A DNA stretch of 27,273 nucleotides, taken from the NCBI GenBank assembly GCA_030613505.1, contig JAUWLW010000038.1:1-27273 (forward strand), written 5' to 3'. Below the pieces are notes generated by a model that made no database searches, had not been told where the DNA came from, and saw nothing but the letters and a program-made list of their open reading frames with translations. This document shows positions 12,940 to 22,075 of the stretch, piece after piece; the stretch's first letter is position 1, and every line of letters begins with the position of its first letter. Made by a program: the position numbers and the translations under genes. This stretch comes from Candidatus Zixiibacteriota bacterium (lineage in GTDB: Bacteria; RBG-13-66-14; B26-G2; WVWN01).

Positions 12940-13877
12940 AACTCGGCTAACGCCTTGTCGTCGACGGACACCTTCGTGCTCTTCTTCAACTCCTCCAACC
13001 AACGCGCGTAGAGTTCTTCCTCGCGTTCGGTGCGGAGGAGGTCCTCTACCTCGGGGCGAACTTCGGTCAAGGGACGGCGCCTGGCTTCCCGCACCCCTAC
13101 GACCTTAACGACCTCGAAACCGTACGGCGTCGTAATTACGCCGCTGGTCCGGCCGGGGGGTAAATTTTCCACCACCGCGGCCACTTCCGGCGGAAGGGCC
13201 TCTAACGCCGTATAGCCGACGTCGCCCCCGGCGTGGCGGTCCGGCGAAATCGAGAGTTCCCGGGCCACTTCCTCGAAGGTCGCACCGTACTCCAACTTGG
13301 CGAGCGCCTCTTCGGCTCGCGCTTTGTCGTCGGTCAATATCTGTTTGACGTGAAACTCGGCCGGGACTTCGAAATCTGCGGCGTGGACGTTGTAGTAGGC
13401 CACGACGTCGTCGTAGCTGACCGAGACCTTCTCTACTACCGCGACCTCGATCGCCGCCTCGACGGCGAGGTCGTCGCGAACGGTTTCTTCGAAAGCTTCG
13501 GCCGTAAGGTTTTGCGACTTGAGGTAGGAGGCGAAACCGCGCGCGCCGTAGTCGGCCTTAATTAAACCCAAGCGGCCTTCGACGTCGGCGTCGGTAACAT
13601 CTACGCCGTTATCCTCGGCCCACGCGAGTATCGTCGAGCGCTCGAGCAGTTGTTCGACGACGCGCCGGGCGGCGTCGGCGTCGACTTCGGCGTCCTCGGG
13701 CCGACCCTGGGGGTAAAGGCCGCGGTATACGTCGGCGGCCTTTATCTCTCGGTCGCCCGCGCGCGCCACGACGAGTTCCCGGGCCGCCTCGCCTTCCCCG
13801 CCTTTACGGCAGCCGGCGGCCGCCGCCAACAACAACACGACGGCGACCGCCGCCCATTTCGGCCTCCAGGCTACCAC
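12936..13877 (-). CDS. PrsA/SurA-like lipoprotein parvulin
   Basis: 313 aa from a GTG whose first base is the last base of the preceding TAG stop. Signal with lipobox LAAAAGC (Cys about residue 23). The N-terminal helical domain contains VVARAGDREIKAADVY (about 36-51) and ends near residue 170. A single parvulin domain about 176-270 shows EFHVKQILTDDKARAEEAL, GATFEEVARELSISPDRHAGGDVG and TPYGFEVVKV, the canonical PPIase layout. Known family: membrane-anchored folding catalysts for secreted proteins. Its stop overlaps the next start (ATGA), so the three chaperones should be made together. Confidence 0.85.
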   Translation of the reverse strand: MVAWRPKWAAVAVVLLLAAAAGCRKGGEGEAARELVVARAGDREIKAADVYRGLYPQGRPEDAEVDADAARRVVEQLLERSTILAWAEDNGVDVTDADVEGRLGLIKADYGARGFASYLKSQNLTAEAFEETVRDDLAVEAAIEVAVVEKVSVSYDDVVAYYNVHAADFEVPAEFHVKQILTDDKARAEEALAKLEYGATFEEVARELSISPDRHAGGDVGYTALEALPPEVAAVVENLPPGRTSGVITTPYGFEVVKVVGVREARRRPLTEVRPEVEDLLRTEREEELYARWLEELKKSTKVSVDDKALAEL

Positions 13878-15706
13878 TACAACTTCTGGACCTTTTTGTA
13901 CGCCATCTTAAGGGCGCCGTCGTCGATCTCGATGGCATATTTGTCGCGGAGCTCCTCGAACCAGGCCTGGCATTTACGGTCGATCTCCGGGCTGGCCAAT
14001 TTCTCCCGATAGGCGCCTTCCTCCGCCCGTTCGTAGTATTCCTCCTCGTCGAGCGTGTGCTGCACGAACGGGGAATGTTCGACGTATCTGAAGAACGCGT
14101 AGCGGCCGTCCTTCAGCTTGAAAACCTCGCTCACGTCGCCCTTTTTGGCCTTGAAGACGCGGGGACGGATTTCGTCCACGAGCGGCCCGGAGCCGCCTTC
14201 CGGCCCCATCGGCGCCGCCGGTTCGGTAGCTACCGGTTCCCGCGGCACCGAGAAAAAGTCCACCATCGGCATCTCAGCACGCGGGGGCTCCTTCCCCGGT
14301 TCGCCCTTCTCCTCCAACTCCGCGAAATACTTTTCGGCGTACTCGCCGGCGGCGGCCATGAAGTCCTCGCCCGTCATTATTTTGGCGCGGACGGCTTCCG
14401 CCTCGGCCTTCTTGGGCATCGCCACGAATTCGACGTCGGCGCGCTCGAGGTCCTGGAACTCGTCCTTGTGGTTCTCGAAGTATTCCTTGATCTCCGCCTC
14501 GGCCAGCTCCGGGATGGAGGGGACGAACACTTCGTCGTAAATCCGGTCCACCATCTTGCCGGCGCGGAACCTGTTAAGGTCGCGTATGAAATCGGCCTCC
14601 TTATCCGCCCCGGACTGGATGGCGTCGAACTCGAGCAGCGCGTCGTCCTCCAACGCCTTGAGCCGGTCGTCCATCACCTTTTTGAATTCCTCCGGCTCCT
14701 TGCTCTTGTATTCGTCCAGCGTCTCCTCGCTCATCCCGAACTGGAGGGGCATACCCTCGAACCAGCTCTCGAAGTAAACCGGCACGCCGCCTACCGACGA
14801 TATTACTTGCTTCTTGCGGTTATACTCCTCCTTGGCGTCGGCCAGTTTACCGTTGATCACGGCGTCGTAGGCGTCGCGGTTAACCTCGATCTCGGCGTCC
14901 TCGCGCAACTTCGCCACGTGTTCCACCATCTTGAGGTTGAGCTTTTGGCTCTTGATGGAGTTGCGGATGCCGTCCTTGACCTGGGCGTACTCGTCCTTTT
15001 GGCCGGGGACCTTCTTGTCGACGCGGAAGATCAACCACATATCGCCGGTTTCGACTTCGACGACGGGGGTGTATTTCCCGACCTCGGCCTCGTACACGGC
15101 GCGACTCACTTCATCGCCGGAATAGTAGAAATCCTCGGGCATCACGCCGCCCTGGTCTTTGTTTTGTTCGAAGACGGAGTACTTCTTGACGACGTCGTTC
15201 CAGGGTTTGCCGGCTTCGAGCTCGGCGTACGCCTTATCGGCCTGGCCCTTTTTGTCGCACATTAAGAACGAGACCCGCCGCCACTCCTTATTTTTATTGA
15301 AATAATCCAGAATCTCCGCCTCGGTCACCTTAATAGTATCCTCTATTTTGCCTCGGGCCGATTCGCGAAGAAGGTTGGACCGGTACGTCTCGACGTCTTT
15401 TATCAATTGCTCGTCGTCGCCGTAGCCCAGCTTCTCGGCCTCCAGCTCGAGCACGCGGCTGATTACGATGTCGTCGAGGAAGTCCTTGGCGTCGTCGAAG
15501 GTGTTGATTACCGGCTTGTCCTGGGGCGGCGCCATCTCGACCGCCCGTTTGTAGTGGTAGACGAAGTCGCCCACCGTAACGGCGCTCTTGTCGCCGATGG
15601 CGGCGATTACCTCGTTCTCGTCGTAGCCGCAGCCGCCGCACCCGCTCGATGTCAGCGCGACGCAGGCCAGCGCGGCCGCCGCCGCAACGATTATAAATTT
15701 TTTCAT
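13877..15706 (-). CDS. Large lipoprotein with two parvulin-like domains
   Basis: 609 aa. Signal with lipobox TSSGC followed by a Gly/Cys cluster (GCGGCGYDEN). A SurA-like N-domain runs about 30-125. Parvulin-like domain 1 is about 128-225 (RRVSFLMCDKKGQADKAYAEL, KDQGGVM, YEAEVGKYTPVVEVETGDMWLIFRV). A long helical, charged middle follows, then parvulin-like domain 2 at about 420-560, interrupted by a Pro/Glu-rich insert (about 470-515). Canonical catalytic positions are poorly conserved, so this may be a chaperone rather than an isomerase. GGAGG site before the ATG. First of the three-gene parvulin operon, downstream of tRNA-Asp with no clear promoter of its own. Confidence 0.8.
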   Translation of the reverse strand: MKKFIIVAAAAALACVALTSSGCGGCGYDENEVIAAIGDKSAVTVGDFVYHYKRAVEMAPPQDKPVINTFDDAKDFLDDIVISRVLELEAEKLGYGDDEQLIKDVETYRSNLLRESARGKIEDTIKVTEAEILDYFNKNKEWRRVSFLMCDKKGQADKAYAELEAGKPWNDVVKKYSVFEQNKDQGGVMPEDFYYSGDEVSRAVYEAEVGKYTPVVEVETGDMWLIFRVDKKVPGQKDEYAQVKDGIRNSIKSQKLNLKMVEHVAKLREDAEIEVNRDAYDAVINGKLADAKEEYNRKKQVISSVGGVPVYFESWFEGMPLQFGMSEETLDEYKSKEPEEFKKVMDDRLKALEDDALLEFDAIQSGADKEADFIRDLNRFRAGKMVDRIYDEVFVPSIPELAEAEIKEYFENHKDEFQDLERADVEFVAMPKKAEAEAVRAKIMTGEDFMAAAGEYAEKYFAELEEKGEPGKEPPRAEMPMVDFFSVPREPVATEPAAPMGPEGGSGPLVDEIRPRVFKAKKGDVSEVFKLKDGRYAFFRYVEHSPFVQHTLDEEEYYERAEEGAYREKLASPEIDRKCQAWFEELRDKYAIEIDDGALKMAYKKVQKL

Positions 15707-15777: not shown

Positions 15778-15784
15778 GTCCATT

Positions 15785-15859
15785 CGGGGCCGACGGGGCT
15801 CGAACCCGCAACATCCGGCGTGACAGGCCGGTGCTCTATCCAAGTTGAACTACAGCCCC
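15785..15859 (-). tRNA. tRNA-Asp (anticodon GTC)
   Basis: 75 nt folding as a full cloverleaf: acceptor GGGGCTG/CGGCCCC (one G-T pair), D stem GTTC/GAGC, anticodon stem CCGGC/GCCGG with loop CTGTCAC (anticodon GTC), 5-nt variable loop, T stem GCGGG/CCCGT with TTCGAGC loop, discriminator G. The 3' CCA is not encoded, since the next bases are AAT. G73 and anticodon GTC agree with aspartate identity. Confidence 0.95.
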
Positions 15860-15871
15860 ATTAAGGCGGTA

Positions 15872-15927: not shown

Positions 15928-15955
15928 GTAGGGGCGACCGGCCGGTCGCCGCTAC
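15928..15955. repeat. Intergenic palindrome, probable dispersed repeat unit
   Basis: Perfect 18-bp palindrome GGCGACCGGCCGGTCGCC (15933-15950) extended by GTAG/CTAC outer arms with one mismatched G. It has the look of short palindromic intergenic repeats found in many copies in some genomes. Only one copy is in this window, so dispersal is an inference. Confidence 0.6.
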
Positions 15956-16010
15956 GGTACGTCGGTCTTGAGGTCGGCGGCGCGGCGGTTAACGCCTCGG
16001 CCTTCCGGCA

Positions 16011-16241
16011 CTATCCTTTGGGCGGATACGGGTCTTTGGCATAAGTACGTTCGTCTTGTATTCTGCCGTTCCGCTTGCGTATCTTGACCTGGCTCGGTCT
16101 ATTCTTTTTCGCCAGGGCAACCGCCTTTTTTACGGCGGGGGGTTTCGTTTCGAAATTAAACCCACGCGCCTTACTGGTTTCGGTAACTCTCCAACCGCCC
16201 TTTTTGACGGCCGTAACATGGTACTGTTTACGCTTCGCCAT
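16011..16241 (-). CDS. DUF2188 small protein
   Basis: 76 aa, Lys/Arg-rich and probably cytoplasmic. The pattern QYHVTAVKKGGWRVTETSKARG ... AVALAKKN ... VKIRKRNGRIQDERTYAKDPYPPKG matches DUF2188, whose members share the H-V-x-[PA]-x2-GGW start and the NGRIQ-E/D-x-x-[TS]-Y-x-x-DP-[FY]-PPKG end. Function of the family is unknown. GGAGG ribosome site 8 nt before the ATG. It lies at the 3' end of the restriction-modification locus in the same orientation, which may be coincidental. Confidence 0.85.
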   Translation of the reverse strand: MAKRKQYHVTAVKKGGWRVTETSKARGFNFETKPPAVKKAVALAKKNRPSQVKIRKRNGRIQDERTYAKDPYPPKG

Positions 16242-16287: not shown

Positions 16288-16432
16288 TTAACGTCCGCCT
16301 TCGACGATACTTATCTCCTCGTCCGTCAGGCCGTACAGCTCGTAGACCAGCGCGTCTATCTTGCGGTCGGTGGCGGCGATGGCGCGCTGTATCCTTTTCT
16401 TGTCGGCGTCGGATTTGGCGGCCGGTTTCCGT
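16288..16432 (-). pseudogene. Detached second copy of the type IIG enzyme's C-terminal segment
   Basis: Translation AAKSDADKKRIQRAIAATD... to ...YGLTDEEISIVEGGR reproduces the last ~45 residues of the enzyme encoded at 17407-20469. At the DNA level 16331-16408 matches 17450-17527 with a single difference (T versus G at 16390/17509); outside this core the copies diverge. There is no proper start: an open frame could begin at a TTG overlapping the stop of the upstream gene, but the extra N-terminal residues are not homologous. GC-rich, unlike the AT-rich gene beside it. Best read as the displaced tail of a related or ancestral enzyme gene, not a functional gene. Confidence 0.8.
16331..16408. 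repeat. Direct repeat, copy 1 (78 bp, one mismatch)
   Basis: Same orientation as 17450-17527, offset 1119 bp. The pair brackets the AT-rich gene at 16476-17378. Confidence 0.9.
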
Positions 16433-16475
16433 AGGCACCGACCTTTAGGACTATGGATTTTCGGCCATCTACCCG

Positions 16476-17378
16476 TCAATCTAAAAACCGGTACCCGTTA
16501 ATAACCAAAAACTTCAAATCTGTAGTACCTTCTACCTTAAAACTATAGTCGAGCTTAAATGGTGAGTTCATATTATGTACATAATTCTGGAGGTACCCAT
16601 TGTTGTAAGTAGATAATATAAACTTTGCGTAAAGAGGGAAATCGAATAACCGATCTAGTGGGTCTTCGCTTTTATCTATTACCTTCTTTATTTCGGTCGC
16701 CAATTCACCGGTTGCCTCTCCTAATATCTTTATGATGCCTTCAAAATTCTGTGTGAAATCATTATTGAACTTATTTTCGGTTACCCACGCGGAGAAGACC
16801 GGGGACCGTCTTTTTATAAATTCTATAAAGGACCACGCTAATTTCGTCCTTAACCCGGTTTTATCTAATCCTGACCTTTGAAAAATATCTTTACCCTTTA
16901 GAGCCGATACTTCGCAATTTAAAATGTACGGCAATATATCGAACTGACTAAGTACTTGTTCGATCTTTTGGCGCCCTTCCGGAATAGGGAATTGTACGAA
17001 CGTTTTATACGATATAGCTTTCCCATTCTCGATTTCTATCATATTACCTTGACTAAACTCGTCGATAATTAAAACCCTATAATCGGAAGAACCTTCCGTA
17101 AACCGCCTTATATCTTGTGCGATAGGAATGGCGAAATTCAAAGAAATATCTTTTAACGGGGCTACTACGTTATCTATTATTGTATCGTATACCCTACATC
17201 CATTAGGATTAAACGACGAAAACAACCAAACACGATCTCGGACCGTGCTATCGCATTTATCTACGATTTCGTTTCTACGCGAACCGTCCTTTTCTCGTAT
17301 CCGTTTCAAAGAATCGTATAAAACGTAAGTTAATTTTAAATAACTAACGGTTTCCTGTTTAGCTAAAATGATAGTCAT
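16476..17378 (-). CDS. AT-rich gene of unknown function in the restriction-modification locus
   Basis: 300 aa, not recognised. Its base composition and codon use (AAA, TTA, ATA, AAT frequent) contrast sharply with surrounding GC-rich genes but match the specificity region of the adjacent enzyme. No signal peptide or TM segment is apparent, so soluble. N-terminal third mixed alpha/beta with VRDRVWLFSSFNPNG (about 46-60), RVLIIDEFSQGN (about 100-111) that could be a strand followed by an acidic turn, then KGKDIFQRSGLDKTGLRTKLAWSFIEFIKRR (about 161-191) and a helical C-terminal half ending in a beta-like segment. No Walker A, HTH or PD-ExK motif that I can defend. Starts 28 nt after the enzyme's stop with an AGGAAG 11 nt before the ATG, so probably cotranscribed. 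Candidate accessory, immunity or control protein of the locus. Confidence 0.75.
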   Translation of the reverse strand: MTIILAKQETVSYLKLTYVLYDSLKRIREKDGSRRNEIVDKCDSTVRDRVWLFSSFNPNGCRVYDTIIDNVVAPLKDISLNFAIPIAQDIRRFTEGSSDYRVLIIDEFSQGNMIEIENGKAISYKTFVQFPIPEGRQKIEQVLSQFDILPYILNCEVSALKGKDIFQRSGLDKTGLRTKLAWSFIEFIKRRSPVFSAWVTENKFNNDFTQNFEGIIKILGEATGELATEIKKVIDKSEDPLDRLFDFPLYAKFILSTYNNGYLQNYVHNMNSPFKLDYSFKVEGTTDLKFLVINGYRFLD

Positions 17379-17406
17379 AATACGTTAGACTTCCTTTTAT
17401 TATTAG

Positions 17407-20400
17407 TCATTTGGCCCCCTCCACTATCCTCCTCTCTTCATCCGTCAAGCCGTACAGCTCGTAGACCAGCGCGTCTATCTTGCGGTCGGTGGCGGCGATG
17501 GCGCGCTGGATCCTTTTCTTGTCGGCGGGGGCCTTGGCGGCGGCGAGGCGCTTGTGGAGCTCGAGCATCTCCTCCACCAACGCCACCATCTTGTCGTGCC
17601 GCGCTACGTCGGTAGGATTTGAACAATCTATTTTTACGACAGGGAAATCGCCAAGGAATTCGGTGGCGAATACAAGGTAATCCCCGCGGAAAGTCGTACT
17701 GTTAGCCTTTATGAAGAACCATAGTAATTTAGAATTGAGAATACCTAAGAAAAACAACGGGTTTTCTTTAACGTCGACCTTGAAAATAACGCTATAGACT
17801 TTTGTTGTATGGTATAAAAACCCGCCGCCATCGTAACTCATATCTGGTTTATTTGCCATATAAGGCGTAACGATTTTTTCTTGTTCGAACTCGGATAAGT
17901 TTTTAGGGTAGATATAAGCGTAAAAATTTTCTCCCTTCATTTTACCCTTTTCCCGGTCTTCTAAATACTTTTTATTTTTTTCTATATACGCCCACGCCAA
18001 AGGGAACATATCGCTAATAAAATCCTTAGGCATCAACTCGGCTTTTGCACCTTCAATACTATAAGGGAAAATAACATATTTACGAGCCTCTAAATCACGG
18101 TAACGCCTAACGTCTCTACCCATAAGGAAAGGTTTTAAAATCCCCTTTTCTAATTCGACTTCCTCTCCCAATGCTTCGGAATACGCTATTAAGGTTCCAT
18201 CGCGTTCGGCTATAAACTCTAAAACGTAAACTTTATCGGCGCTCGTTTGTAAACCAACGAAAATTTTACGTGTAATTTCGTTCAGAGGTACGCCAGAGCT
18301 TCCGATCTTTTCGATTATACGGCGTTTATCCTCCGAAACGAAATTCCACTCATTTCCTGTAATACTTTCCGCAGGTATTTCGAAATCTTCAAATATCTTA
18401 CCCTTTAACCAATCTTGAATATTTAATACCCGTATATAACGTGGTGTATTCGTAGGCGTCTTTTTTAAAACGATAATGCAAGTATAAGTCGTAGCCCCTT
18501 CGAATACTTGTTGTACCCCGAAATGGACGGTTTTAAATAGGTTTCTACCTTCTGCGATAAGGGTTCTTATGGGTTCGCCGTATTGGGCATTAAAGAATTT
18601 ATGGGGTACTATAAAACCGAGTAACCCTTTTTTTACTAATAATCCTAAACCCCGTTCGATAAATAGAACATATATATCGTAATTACCCGACCGTGCAGCG
18701 GAAAACCCCTTTTTATAATAATCCAATTTATCAATACCTGCGTCCCGTAACGTCTGTAACCTAACATACGGCGGGTTCCCGATCACCGCGTCGAAACCGC
18801 CGGCCTTCATTATCTTCGGGAACTCCACCTCCCAGTCGAAGGGGTTGACGCGGCGCCGTTCCTCCTCATCCTGTGGGACAGACATTGATGTCTGTCCCCC
18901 CTCAAAATAGTCCGAGCCGATGAGCGAGTTGCCGCACTTGACGTTATCGCCCAGGTCCGGCAGAATCCGCTCGCGCAGGAACTTGGTCTGGGCGCCGACG
19001 GACTCGCGGCTCTCGCCCTCCAGCGCCTTCAGCAGCAGCGAGAGCTTCGTAACCTCGCACGCCTGCGGGTCGATGTCCACGCCGAACAGGTTATTTACGA
19101 GGATGTCCTTCTTGGCGGCGGCGGTGAGGCGCCAGCTCACGGGCCCGGGCCCGGGCGTCGCGACGACCTTACCCTCGTGCTTCGCCGGGCCGTCCTTAAC
19201 ATACCACTCGAGATGCCAGTTGACCAGGTGCTGGTACGCGCCCAACAGGAACGAGCCCGAGCCGCACGCGGGGTCGAGTATTTTAAGTTTGGCCGCGTCC
19301 TTCGGCCTCTTGCACCCCTTCAACAGCTCCCCCACCGTGTTCTTGACGATGTACTCCACGATGTACTGGGGCGTGTAGTAGACGCCCTTGGCCTTGCGGA
19401 CCTCCGGCTTGTAGTCTATGTGGACGCCGCGGCCGTCGAGCCATATCGTCTTCCCGAGGAACTGCTCGTACACCTGGCCGAGTATCTCCACCGGGACGAC
19501 GCCGAACTCGTACGGGCTATCGGATAGCTCTCGGATTATTTTGCGGAGTGTTGCGTCGTCCACGTGAAGGGTGGGCGTGAGCTCGTCGCGGGAGGTGGCG
19601 CGGCCTTTCTCGTCGCGGAAGTGGAACAGGCCGGAGTTGTAAACGTCGTCGGCCTCGAGGCACAGGTCCATCAGGCGGCCGTAAACGGCCTCGCCCGTAC
19701 GAAGCGCCTCGAGCCGGCCGCGGTCCTCGATGCCGCGGTCCTCGGCGACGCGGAGGAAAATTATGCGGTCGAGGATGGCCTGGACGGCGGCGCTTAGCTC
19801 GTACTTGTCGAGGTCCTTCTCGCGGTTGCGGTTGGCGACGTTGCGCGCGAGCTCGTCGCGCCAACCCTCCAATAGTTTCAAAAACGCCTTGTCGACCGGT
19901 TCGGCCTTGCCGCCGCGGGTTTTCTCGGCGTACGTATCGAACGCCCCACTCCACACGGCTTCCCGGGAAAATACCGCCGCTATCTCCTCCCACGCCTCTA
20001 CGTACCGGTCGTACGTGAAATACATAACGCGGGCGCGGGAGGCGGCGTCGGCCTTCTTCGGCGGAACGCGGCCGTCGTAGGCCGCGAACTCCTCGAAGTC
20101 GGTCAAAATGGAAAGGGGTAAGCCGGCGGAATAGGCGTAGCGGCGGAGCTGCAGCGCGGGGCCGGCGTCGTCCTTAAGGCGGGTGCCGGGCTTTTTAGCC
20201 TCGACGAAAAATTTTACCTTTTCGCCGACGCGGAAGGCGTAATCGGCGGTCTTTTGGGAACCCTCTACCTCGGTGCCGTACTCGTGAACGACGTCCTGAT
20301 ACAGCGGCGAGACGCCGCGTTTGTTGTCCACATCCCAACCGAGCGCCTCGAAGAACGGGTCGAGGAACTCGCGCCGGAGCTGCGTCTCGTTGTAACCGCT

Positions 20401-20469
20401 CCCGCAATAAAGCTCTCGGTTTCGGTCGAAGCGCGCGACAAGGGTTTCGACTATTTCGGGTGCGGCCAT
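17407..20469 (-). CDS. One-polypeptide (type IIG-like) restriction enzyme / N6-adenine DNA methyltransferase
   Basis: 1020 aa. N-terminal nuclease-like domain about 1-140: the PD-(D/E)xK core is visible as D76 (TADYAF) with E90-A-K92 (FFVEAKKPG), and the region resembles HsdR N-termini. A helical linker runs about 190-355. The methyltransferase domain opens with VYYTPQYIVEYIV (363-375), has SAM motif I ILDPACGSGSF (397-407), VDIDP (464-468), and catalytic motif IV NPPY (565-568), the N6-adenine/Eco57I class. The remaining part contains a TaqI/BREX-like specificity segment (FLMGRDVRRYRDL) and a C-terminal coiled coil (about 960-1005). Known architecture: cutting, methylation and recognition in one chain. 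DNA for residues about 563-953 is AT-rich, the rest GC-rich, implying a swapped specificity region. Strong GGAGGAGAAGG site before the ATG. Confidence 0.88.
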   Translation of the reverse strand: MAAPEIVETLVARFDRNRELYCGSGYNETQLRREFLDPFFEALGWDVDNKRGVSPLYQDVVHEYGTEVEGSQKTADYAFRVGEKVKFFVEAKKPGTRLKDDAGPALQLRRYAYSAGLPLSILTDFEEFAAYDGRVPPKKADAASRARVMYFTYDRYVEAWEEIAAVFSREAVWSGAFDTYAEKTRGGKAEPVDKAFLKLLEGWRDELARNVANRNREKDLDKYELSAAVQAILDRIIFLRVAEDRGIEDRGRLEALRTGEAVYGRLMDLCLEADDVYNSGLFHFRDEKGRATSRDELTPTLHVDDATLRKIIRELSDSPYEFGVVPVEILGQVYEQFLGKTIWLDGRGVHIDYKPEVRKAKGVYYTPQYIVEYIVKNTVGELLKGCKRPKDAAKLKILDPACGSGSFLLGAYQHLVNWHLEWYVKDGPAKHEGKVVATPGPGPVSWRLTAAAKKDILVNNLFGVDIDPQACEVTKLSLLLKALEGESRESVGAQTKFLRERILPDLGDNVKCGNSLIGSDYFEGGQTSMSVPQDEEERRRVNPFDWEVEFPKIMKAGGFDAVIGNPPYVRLQTLRDAGIDKLDYYKKGFSAARSGNYDIYVLFIERGLGLLVKKGLLGFIVPHKFFNAQYGEPIRTLIAEGRNLFKTVHFGVQQVFEGATTYTCIIVLKKTPTNTPRYIRVLNIQDWLKGKIFEDFEIPAESITGNEWNFVSEDKRRIIEKIGSSGVPLNEITRKIFVGLQTSADKVYVLEFIAERDGTLIAYSEALGEEVELEKGILKPFLMGRDVRRYRDLEARKYVIFPYSIEGAKAELMPKDFISDMFPLAWAYIEKNKKYLEDREKGKMKGENFYAYIYPKNLSEFEQEKIVTPYMANKPDMSYDGGGFLYHTTKVYSVIFKVDVKENPLFFLGILNSKLLWFFIKANSTTFRGDYLVFATEFLGDFPVVKIDCSNPTDVARHDKMVALVEEMLELHKRLAAAKAPADKKRIQRAIAATDRKIDALVYELYGLTDEERRIVEGAK
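17450..17527. repeat. Direct repeat, copy 2, inside the 3' end of the type IIG gene
   Basis: Matches 16331-16408 in the same orientation with one mismatch. This copy is within the intact enzyme gene. Confidence 0.9.
18875..18898. repeat. 24-bp palindrome inserted in the coding sequence
   Basis: Arms GGGACAGACAT and ATGTCTGTCCC are perfectly complementary around a 2-nt TG centre. It encodes enzyme residues about 524-532 (GGQTSMSVP) in frame, between the SAM-binding motif and NPPY. The shape is that of a small mobile palindromic repeat. Confidence 0.7.
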
Positions 20470-20572: not shown

Positions 20573-22075
20573 TTAAGATAGCTCCTCCACCGCGTCGGCG
20601 AGCCAGGGGTCGTGCCGGCGCCAGTACTTGTACGCCTCGGCGTCGCCCGCGACCTCGCGCAGGACCTCCCGGGTCAGCATCGTCATCACCGCGGCGCGGT
20701 CCTTCTCGATGGCGGCGACGGCGAACTCGCGGCCGTTATCCGGCAGCGTCTCGGCGTACCCCTCGGGGTAGAAGTCGAAGCCGCGGTCGGCGACCCAGGC
20801 CACGAACTCGTCGAAGGCCGCGGCGTCGGCCTCGAAGTCCGCCAGCGCCGCGGAGCCGTGGGCGTCGTGGTACTCCTCGGCGAACATCCTGAAATAACCC
20901 AGGACGAACAGCTTGCCCACTACTAACGGGATTTCCTCCGGCTCCAATTTTATTTCAGGCTCGATGCCCTCGCCGTCGATGAGGTCGCCGTCGGGCGTGT
21001 AGTAGTAAGCGATGGTTATCTTCAGGCCCGGGCCCGGGGCGACGTGGGCCGCGGCCGCGAGCGGTATCAGCGTCTGCACCGACGCCTTGCCGTAGGACTT
21101 CTCGCCCATCACGACGGCCCGCTTGTGGTCTTTTAAAGCCCCCGTGAGGACCTCCGACGCCGACGCCGAGGAGTCGTCTATGAGGACGACGAAGGGCTCT
21201 TTTTTATACTTGGGCTCGCCCTTGACGAAGTACTTCCGCTCCTCCCAGCGTCTGGAGCGGCCGGCGGTGTAGACGACCAGCGAGCCCTTTTTTAAAAATA
21301 GACTGGCCAGGGCCACGGCCTCGTCGAGCGGGCCGCCGGGGTTGCCGCGCAGGTCGATGATGAACTTCTCCGCGCCGGCCTCCTTCAGCGCCGCCAGCGC
21401 CCGGTCGGCGTCCGTAGACGTGCTCCGCTCCTCGTCGCGGGCGAAGTTGGCGATGCGGACGTAGCCGACGTCGTCGGCGGCCATGAAATAGTACGGCACG
21501 GAATCGACGTGGATGACCTCGCGCGTTATCTTGAAGTCCAACATGTCGGCGTAGCCCATGCGCGCGACGCCTATCTCGATGTCGGCGCCGGGGTCGCCGC
21601 GCATCTTGAGCAGCGCCCCGCGGGTCGTAATCCCCTTCGTCGATTCGCCGTCAATCTCGACTATTTTGTCGCGCGCCATGAGGCCGGCCCGTTCCGCCGG
21701 CGTGCCCTCCAGCACGTTCATCACGGTGAGCGTGGTGTCCTCGGGCGTGACCGCGATCTCGATGCCCAGGCCGCCGAACGACCCCTCGGTGTCGTTGATG
21801 AGGAGGCGGAAATCGTCGGCGTCGAGGAAGGCGGTGTGCTCGTCCAGGCCGGACAACATGCCGCGGATGGCGTCTTGCACCAGCTGCTCGGCGTCGACCT
21901 CCTTGACGTAGCTCAGCCGGACGTAGTTGGCGACGGTGTCGAAGAGCTTGATCTCGCGTACGAAATCCTGGGCGTTGTCGCCGGCCCACGCCTGCGAAAA
22001 TATGGCCGGCGAGGCCGCGAACGCCGCCAGAACCGCCGCGGCGTAGATTAGCCGTAAAACTCGGGTAAGCTTCAT
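20573..22075 (-). CDS. ctpA: C-terminal processing peptidase, S41 family
   Basis: 500 aa. N-terminal signal peptide (about 5-31), helical S41 N-domain, PDZ domain about 93-180 (FGGLGIEIAV, GLMARDKIVEIDGEST), and the S41 protease core with YVRIANF, the DLRGNPGG substrate-strand motif (241-248), SSASASE containing the likely nucleophile S305, and SYGKASVQ with general base K330 and Q334; the 25-residue Ser-Lys spacing and K+4 Gln match Prc/CtpA. A ~110-residue helical C-terminal extension follows the core. Known role: tail-specific proteolysis of periplasmic proteins, often peptidoglycan hydrolases or their regulators, which fits the EnvC-like gene two genes upstream. Starts 4 nt after the purN stop. 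Confidence 0.9.
   Translation of the reverse strand: MKLTRVLRLIYAAAVLAAFAASPAIFSQAWAGDNAQDFVREIKLFDTVANYVRLSYVKEVDAEQLVQDAIRGMLSGLDEHTAFLDADDFRLLINDTEGSFGGLGIEIAVTPEDTTLTVMNVLEGTPAERAGLMARDKIVEIDGESTKGITTRGALLKMRGDPGADIEIGVARMGYADMLDFKITREVIHVDSVPYYFMAADDVGYVRIANFARDEERSTSTDADRALAALKEAGAEKFIIDLRGNPGGPLDEAVALASLFLKKGSLVVYTAGRSRRWEERKYFVKGEPKYKKEPFVVLIDDSSASASEVLTGALKDHKRAVVMGEKSYGKASVQTLIPLAAAAHVAPGPGLKITIAYYYTPDGDLIDGEGIEPEIKLEPEEIPLVVGKLFVLGYFRMFAEEYHDAHGSAALADFEADAAAFDEFVAWVADRGFDFYPEGYAETLPDNGREFAVAAIEKDRAAVMTMLTREVLREVAGDAEAYKYWRRHDPWLADAVEELS

Follow-up and report, generated by a model that had tools for sequence, protein, structure and literature searches.

Why should the last codons of a restriction-modification (R-M) enzyme gene be present a second time, beyond an unrelated AT-rich gene? 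The question is raised by a stretch of 27,273 nucleotides from a Candidatus Zixiibacteriota bacterium (the whole stretch is called the window hereafter), in which two direct repeats of 78 bp, at 16331-16408 and 17450-17527, lie in the same orientation and 1119 bp apart with a single mismatch (16390 T versus 17509 G), just as the sequence-only reading had claimed. The similarity extends over a wider repeat of 125 bp with 89% identity (16298-16422 and 17417-17541), and the chance of finding a comparable pair in 27 kb was roughly estimated at 1e-33. The features of the region are the following:

17407-20469, minus strand: type IIG R-M enzyme gene, 1020 residues
18778-20469, minus strand: conserved N-core of the enzyme, residues 1-564, with an HSDR_N-like nuclease region and an Eco57I-type N6-adenine methylase (Pfam, PADLOC, alignment); 63% GC
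17641-18777, minus strand: target-recognition (specificity) domain, residues 565-943, TaqI_C; AT-rich, 39% GC
17407-17640, minus strand: conserved C-terminal tail with stop codon, residues 944-1020; about 60% GC
17450-17527, minus strand: near-identical 78-bp core, enzyme copy
16476-17378, minus strand: cargo gene 1, 300-aa orphan protein with its own likely ribosome-binding site AAAGGAAG; 37% GC
16288-16431, minus strand: stranded tail fragment, tail-model positions 27-71, about 45 bp past the cargo stop codon; 62% GC
16331-16408, minus strand: near-identical 78-bp core, stranded copy
16011-16241, minus strand: probable cargo gene 2, after the stranded tail, 76-aa DUF2188 protein (Pfam 1.5e-14)
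15784-15860, minus strand: tRNA-Asp (ARAGORN), downstream island border, common to the related genomes G001, G002 and G003
13877-15706, minus strand: PPIC-type PPIase (SurA-like), downstream border gene
20573-22075, minus strand: peptidase S41 (CtpA-like), upstream island border, the same neighbour being found in G002 and G003

The enzyme matched the Pfam families HSDR_N, Eco57I and TaqI_C, its residues 7-1015 were covered by PADLOC PDLC03604 (1.3e-252), and D76, E90 and K92 of the nuclease region were invariant in an alignment of eight proteins. Judged by its sequence, it is predicted to be a single-chain Eco57I-like type IIG enzyme, in which the nuclease region, the N6-adenine methylase and the specificity domain are fused. 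The stranded copy stays in frame with its own stop codon, reads KPAAKSDADKKRIQRAIAATDRKIDALVYELYGLTDEEISIVEGGR before it and ends at 16288; the fragment downstream of the 300-aa gene is a true type IIG tail, as had been proposed. Recombination through the 78-bp core could plausibly loop out the gene in between and keep the enzyme frame, and, as far as can be read from the DNA, would yield a full-length enzyme ending in EEISIVEGGR, in agreement with the earlier proposal.

The 300-aa protein had no Pfam match above cut-off and none in PADLOC or NCBIfam, and thus no similarity to a known defence family by which it could be counted among the embedded defence genes discussed below. No relative of it was found among plasmids, phages, IMG/VR or the 145 searched genomes except its own, none of the solved structures was related to it (best E value 0.79), and its AlphaFold model was poor (pLDDT 40). 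Further downstream, positions 15955-15985 of the window hold a 23-bp tail-like stretch (19/23), at the place where a sister genome has its last decayed tail; it may be a third, decayed copy, with a score not above that of shuffled controls.

The same site was compared in four genomes, and it carries one cargo slot in the window, a four-tail array in the sister genome (G001), only scars in G003 and nothing in G002. In the sister genome, four tail copies with cargo between them lie downstream of the orthologous enzyme; the first comes directly after a palindrome, and the others come after a 152-aa gene with a small ORF, after a gene of 119 aa and after one of 190 aa. The enzyme is absent from G003, where tail remnants are kept (one of 46 bits and two further short ones read by eye), and is missing as well from G002, the only empty site. 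A second type IIG locus has the layout too, with a 453-aa gene and two remnants in the genome of the window (contig C41), and a 309-aa DUF4268 gene and two tail copies in the sister genome (contig C64). The tail recurs many times in its own genome, on this contig C41, and in other genomes.

Three side observations concern these loci. The 453-aa cargo protein behind the second type IIG gene (L006:10315-11676) belongs to no Pfam or PADLOC family. Short palindromes of the GTAGGGGCGACTGGCCAGTCGCCCCTAC type border several stranded tails (L036:5840-8165 in G001 and L037:7385-7460 in G003), and a related palindrome interrupts a tail; they may be REP-like elements that seed breaks. A conserved TM cargo common to L036 and L040 was considered and rejected, the two being without sequence similarity.

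The extent of the layout was analyzed with relatives gathered through motifs far from the tail (79 loci), of which 62 formed the survey set, their C-terminus being complete and followed by 1.5 kb or more of sequence. With a cut-off of E<1e-3, stranded tails were detected in 14 of these 62 independently gathered loci, roughly a quarter, located downstream in the orientation of the enzyme. The survey set covers bacteria and archaea, and the loci with stranded tails belong to Methanothrix, Methanomicrobiales, ANME-1, Anaerolineales, KSB1, Brachyspira, Phycisphaerae, Acidobacteria, Bacteroidetes and other groups. As a control, 78 loci, some of them chosen for their tails, were scanned with hidden Markov models of nine 72-aa enzyme windows: the tail window gave 31 fragments in 21 loci, all downstream and on the same strand, and the other eight gave zero downstream fragments. 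Over all loci, a stranded C-terminus was found for 18 of 88 type IIG enzymes versus 4 of 388 other genes (P=5e-11), and at least two of the four control cases look like tandem methylase paralogues. Extra loci from the surveyed genomes share the layout, including that of another Eco57I/TaqI_C enzyme, of 1296 aa, with three tails and dCTP deaminase as cargo (L155; Methanothrix, G146:C48), and therefore the phenomenon spans more than one enzyme subfamily. The layout occurs up to four times in a row at a single site and returns in different phyla, so that the initial interpretation of the window as the outcome of one event is too narrow.

We propose, with a probability of around 0.6, that the last ~78 codons of these genes are a homologous-recombination seam, at which specificity domains are exchanged, cargo is added and resident tails are left behind. 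According to this, the alleles would consist of a conserved N-core and a conserved tail around unrelated specificity domains, and homologous exchange in core and tail would swap the specificity domains. The same exchange would admit a small cargo gene, in many cases a toxin-antitoxin or defence gene, between two tail copies, in such a way that the 3' tail of the resident gene would end up stranded behind the cargo. Repeated events would build arrays in the order enzyme-tail, cargo, tail, cargo, tail, and recombination between direct tail copies could remove cargo, with scars left in its place. What the data show is a recurrent architecture restricted to the tail, mosaic tails, the sharing of tails between loci, allele-like divergence and AT-rich fillings; the direction of the events and the loss by loop-out are what we infer. 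Between close strains, no allele with a deletion or an insertion was seen. For the joint between cargo and tail, a one-sided capture anchored by homology and an insertion that duplicates the target may each explain parts of the data.

The sharing of tails is seen in nucleotide identities. The window enzyme and its sister orthologue are 89% identical in the N-core, 46% in the specificity domain and 74% in the tail, and the corresponding values against the second locus of its own genome are 59%, 45% and 81%. The tail identity is thus at odds with that of the N-core across both comparisons, and therefore the history of the tail differs from that of the remaining gene. The pair of tails in the window is mosaic, with one difference in 26 codons and 14 in the other 16 (permutation P=5e-5), and so is one pair of the sister genome (L035), where 39 codons contain one difference and the remaining 26 contain 17 (P=3e-4); the signal was strong in these 2 of the 7 tail pairs tested, the five others being weakly or not mosaic. 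The dN/dS between enzyme and stranded tails was 0.14 in the window and 0.27 pooled over 30 pairs, values that are biased downward, since it was through protein similarity that the fragments were detected; the ratio between functional tails of these genera was 0.07-0.43, and the stranded tails thus look like other alleles. It had been suggested from the divergence outside the repeat that a related donor is more likely than a simple tandem duplication. Both the differences outside the 26-codon block and the dN/dS values support the descent of the fragment from a different tail allele, and not from a neutral tandem copy.

These data bear also on long target duplication, in which the cargo would have been inserted at a long staggered break at the end of the enzyme gene, 60-230 bp of tail would have been duplicated, and later swaps of the specificity domain would have diverged the first tail. 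It would account for the same-strand direct repeats that flank the cargo, including the tail copies on both sides of the window insert, and it predicts that the tails flanking cargo belong to one allele family per locus, as they mostly do. Comparable insertions are known for R-M genes, and were reportedly described by Nobusato et al. in 2000 and by Furuta in 2010. By contrast, the fragments stop at the border between specificity domain and tail in all loci but one, the copies have diverged as functional alleles do and in no neutral pattern, and the tails of the window and of L035 are mosaic, so that we consider this explanation possible but on the unlikely side.

The fillings differ from the tails in composition as well, the GC content of the specificity domain being below that of the tail in 19 of 19 loci (P=4e-6) and that of the cargo below that of the stranded tail (P=4e-5). 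The sequence-only reading had proposed that a cassette of specificity region, tail and extra gene recombined into an older gene. In favour of it, the specificity domain (39% GC) and the extra gene (37% GC) of the window look foreign between tails of backbone GC, but their joint arrival as one cassette does not follow from this. In Methanothrix, arrays of two species carry the same two-gene PIN (vapBC-like) cargo, 71% and 79% identical, and the specificity domains of the two type IIG genes show no detectable similarity, and therefore cargo and specificity can be decoupled.

With respect to the anatomy of the arrays, the fragments start at varying points within the last 78 residues, residue -78 being the border of the specificity domain, and none starts further upstream except at L093; most of them extend as far as the stop codon of the enzyme. 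The distance from the cargo stop to the fragment behind it is 0-110 bp in most loci, where the next cargo gene also starts within ~50 bp of the enzyme stop, with exceptions of up to ~290 bp. No clear age gradient of decay was detected along the arrays, the picture being mixed. Two further ideas were rejected: silent specificity-domain cassettes between the tails, whose size the ~700 bp spacers would fit, since searches with the last 460 residues matched only tails except at L093; and the tail as a source of the ribosome-binding site of the next gene, since the cargo genes have one of their own in the loci inspected by eye. In a Bacteroidetes locus (L126:9931-12240), with TIR and DUF3800 genes as cargo, the repeated unit comprises the tail and the enzyme's transcription terminator.

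A site-specific cassette system, with the tail as attachment site for a recombinase encoded elsewhere, would agree with tails that start 0-70 bp past the cargo stop in most cases, with up to four tandem units and with diverse cargos, among which there are IS200/Y1-like transposases, and palindromes border some tails. However, the left ends of the fragments are spread over ~60 codons with no fixed crossover point, no recombinase was recognised by Pfam in the window insert or the border genes examined, and some cargos lie against the orientation of the tails (L083/L160, L156), for which we regard such a system as very unlikely. The variable left ends, with no integrase in the window insert, also set the layout apart from integron-like cassettes, and the insert, one family-less 300-aa gene without terminal inverted repeat in a repeat scan, does not have the structure of a composite or IS-type transposon.

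Decay of tandem type IIG genes, in which a second enzyme gene behind each cargo would have been deleted save for its tail, has its example in L093 (Brachyspira), where a degenerate second enzyme reaches ~450 residues upstream of its tail. Nevertheless, the other fragments keep no specificity domain or core, random deletion would leave longer remnants and those of intermediate length are absent from the survey, which makes it a most improbable origin for the arrays. Finally, chance, an assembly artefact or a simple tandem duplication limited to the window is hardly credible, because, although most of the contigs and of the surveyed loci come from metagenome-assembled genomes, the repeat is far above chance and numerous assemblies, independent of each other and from unrelated phyla, have the layout, in every case downstream and in the same orientation.

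Among the cargo, Pfam and PADLOC recognised PIN (three), HepT with nucleotidyltransferase, RhuM (two), SLFN_AlbA_2 (two), TIR (two), DUF4268/PDC-S11, DUF3800, ParE, a phosphatase-like domain, DUF4411, an M78/RmrA-like protein, dCTP deaminase, PD-Lambda-4_A and IS200-like (IS200/Y1-like) transposases. Several cargos matched the PADLOC families PDC-S05, PDC-S11, PD-Lambda-4 and RmrA-like, and family-less proteins make up a good share. The HepT pair, at L041, lies beside a solo tail with no enzyme. In one Methanomicrobiales genome, L156 and L160 carry related M78-peptidase/RmrA-like genes, whose proteins are 50% identical, opposite to the tails and flanked by tails of two different allele types. 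At L090:6725-10477 a 1250-aa PD-Lambda-4_A-like defence gene lies between a type IIG gene of Methanoregula, which it directly follows, and a tail fragment.

If the recombination seam is correct, it offers a sequence-level route for small defence and toxin-antitoxin genes to gather beside R-M genes, the conserved coding end doubling as a homology arm. The tail can then be used as a search key, in such a way that a short gene between type IIG tails becomes a candidate defence or toxin-antitoxin gene, including the orphan 300-aa protein. Stranded tails would be scars that record past occupancy, so that the turnover of defence loci could be read from single genomes. A stronger version, in which the tail would serve as a genuine attachment site for cassettes and type IIG genes of bacteria and archaea as platforms for arrays of immune and toxin-antitoxin cassettes, moved via their own C-terminal coding sequence by dedicated or R-M-stimulated recombination, seems to us rather doubtful.

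Exchange and movement of specificity domains are known for R-M specificity genes, in which, as we propose here, conserved blocks around variable target-recognition domains are recombination sites within and between loci (PMC3077401). In that system the blocks lie inside the specificity genes, whereas in the present loci it is the C-terminal block of a single-chain type IIG enzyme that has further copies outside its gene, around unrelated cargo. Target-duplicating insertions of R-M genes, as cited in PMC3031569, have in common with these loci the long direct repeats around inserted genes, but what is inserted here is the cargo, what is repeated is the R-M gene's own tail, and the copies are old, diverged and partly mosaic.

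In the pneumococcal phase-variable tvr locus, segments of specificity genes are shuffled by the recombinase TvrR (PMC6265443). Excision between direct repeats of an R-M locus is possible there, as it may be in the present loci, and tvr likewise includes toxin-antitoxin homologues; no counterpart of TvrR was found among the insert and border genes examined here, and in place of the silent specificity domains of tvr/ivr the spacers hold cargo genes, without similarity to the enzyme's specificity domain except at L093. Defence genes embedded in R-M loci ("guilt by embedding"), such as DarTG2 in a type I R-M locus (PMC12255303), are similar in that defence and toxin-antitoxin genes lie inside or behind R-M operons, but there they lie between hsd genes and here they are serially bracketed by copies of the enzyme's own tail. 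Cargo arrays bounded by tails were not found described in the open literature, and it is these arrays that would be new, the plasticity of R-M loci in general being already known.
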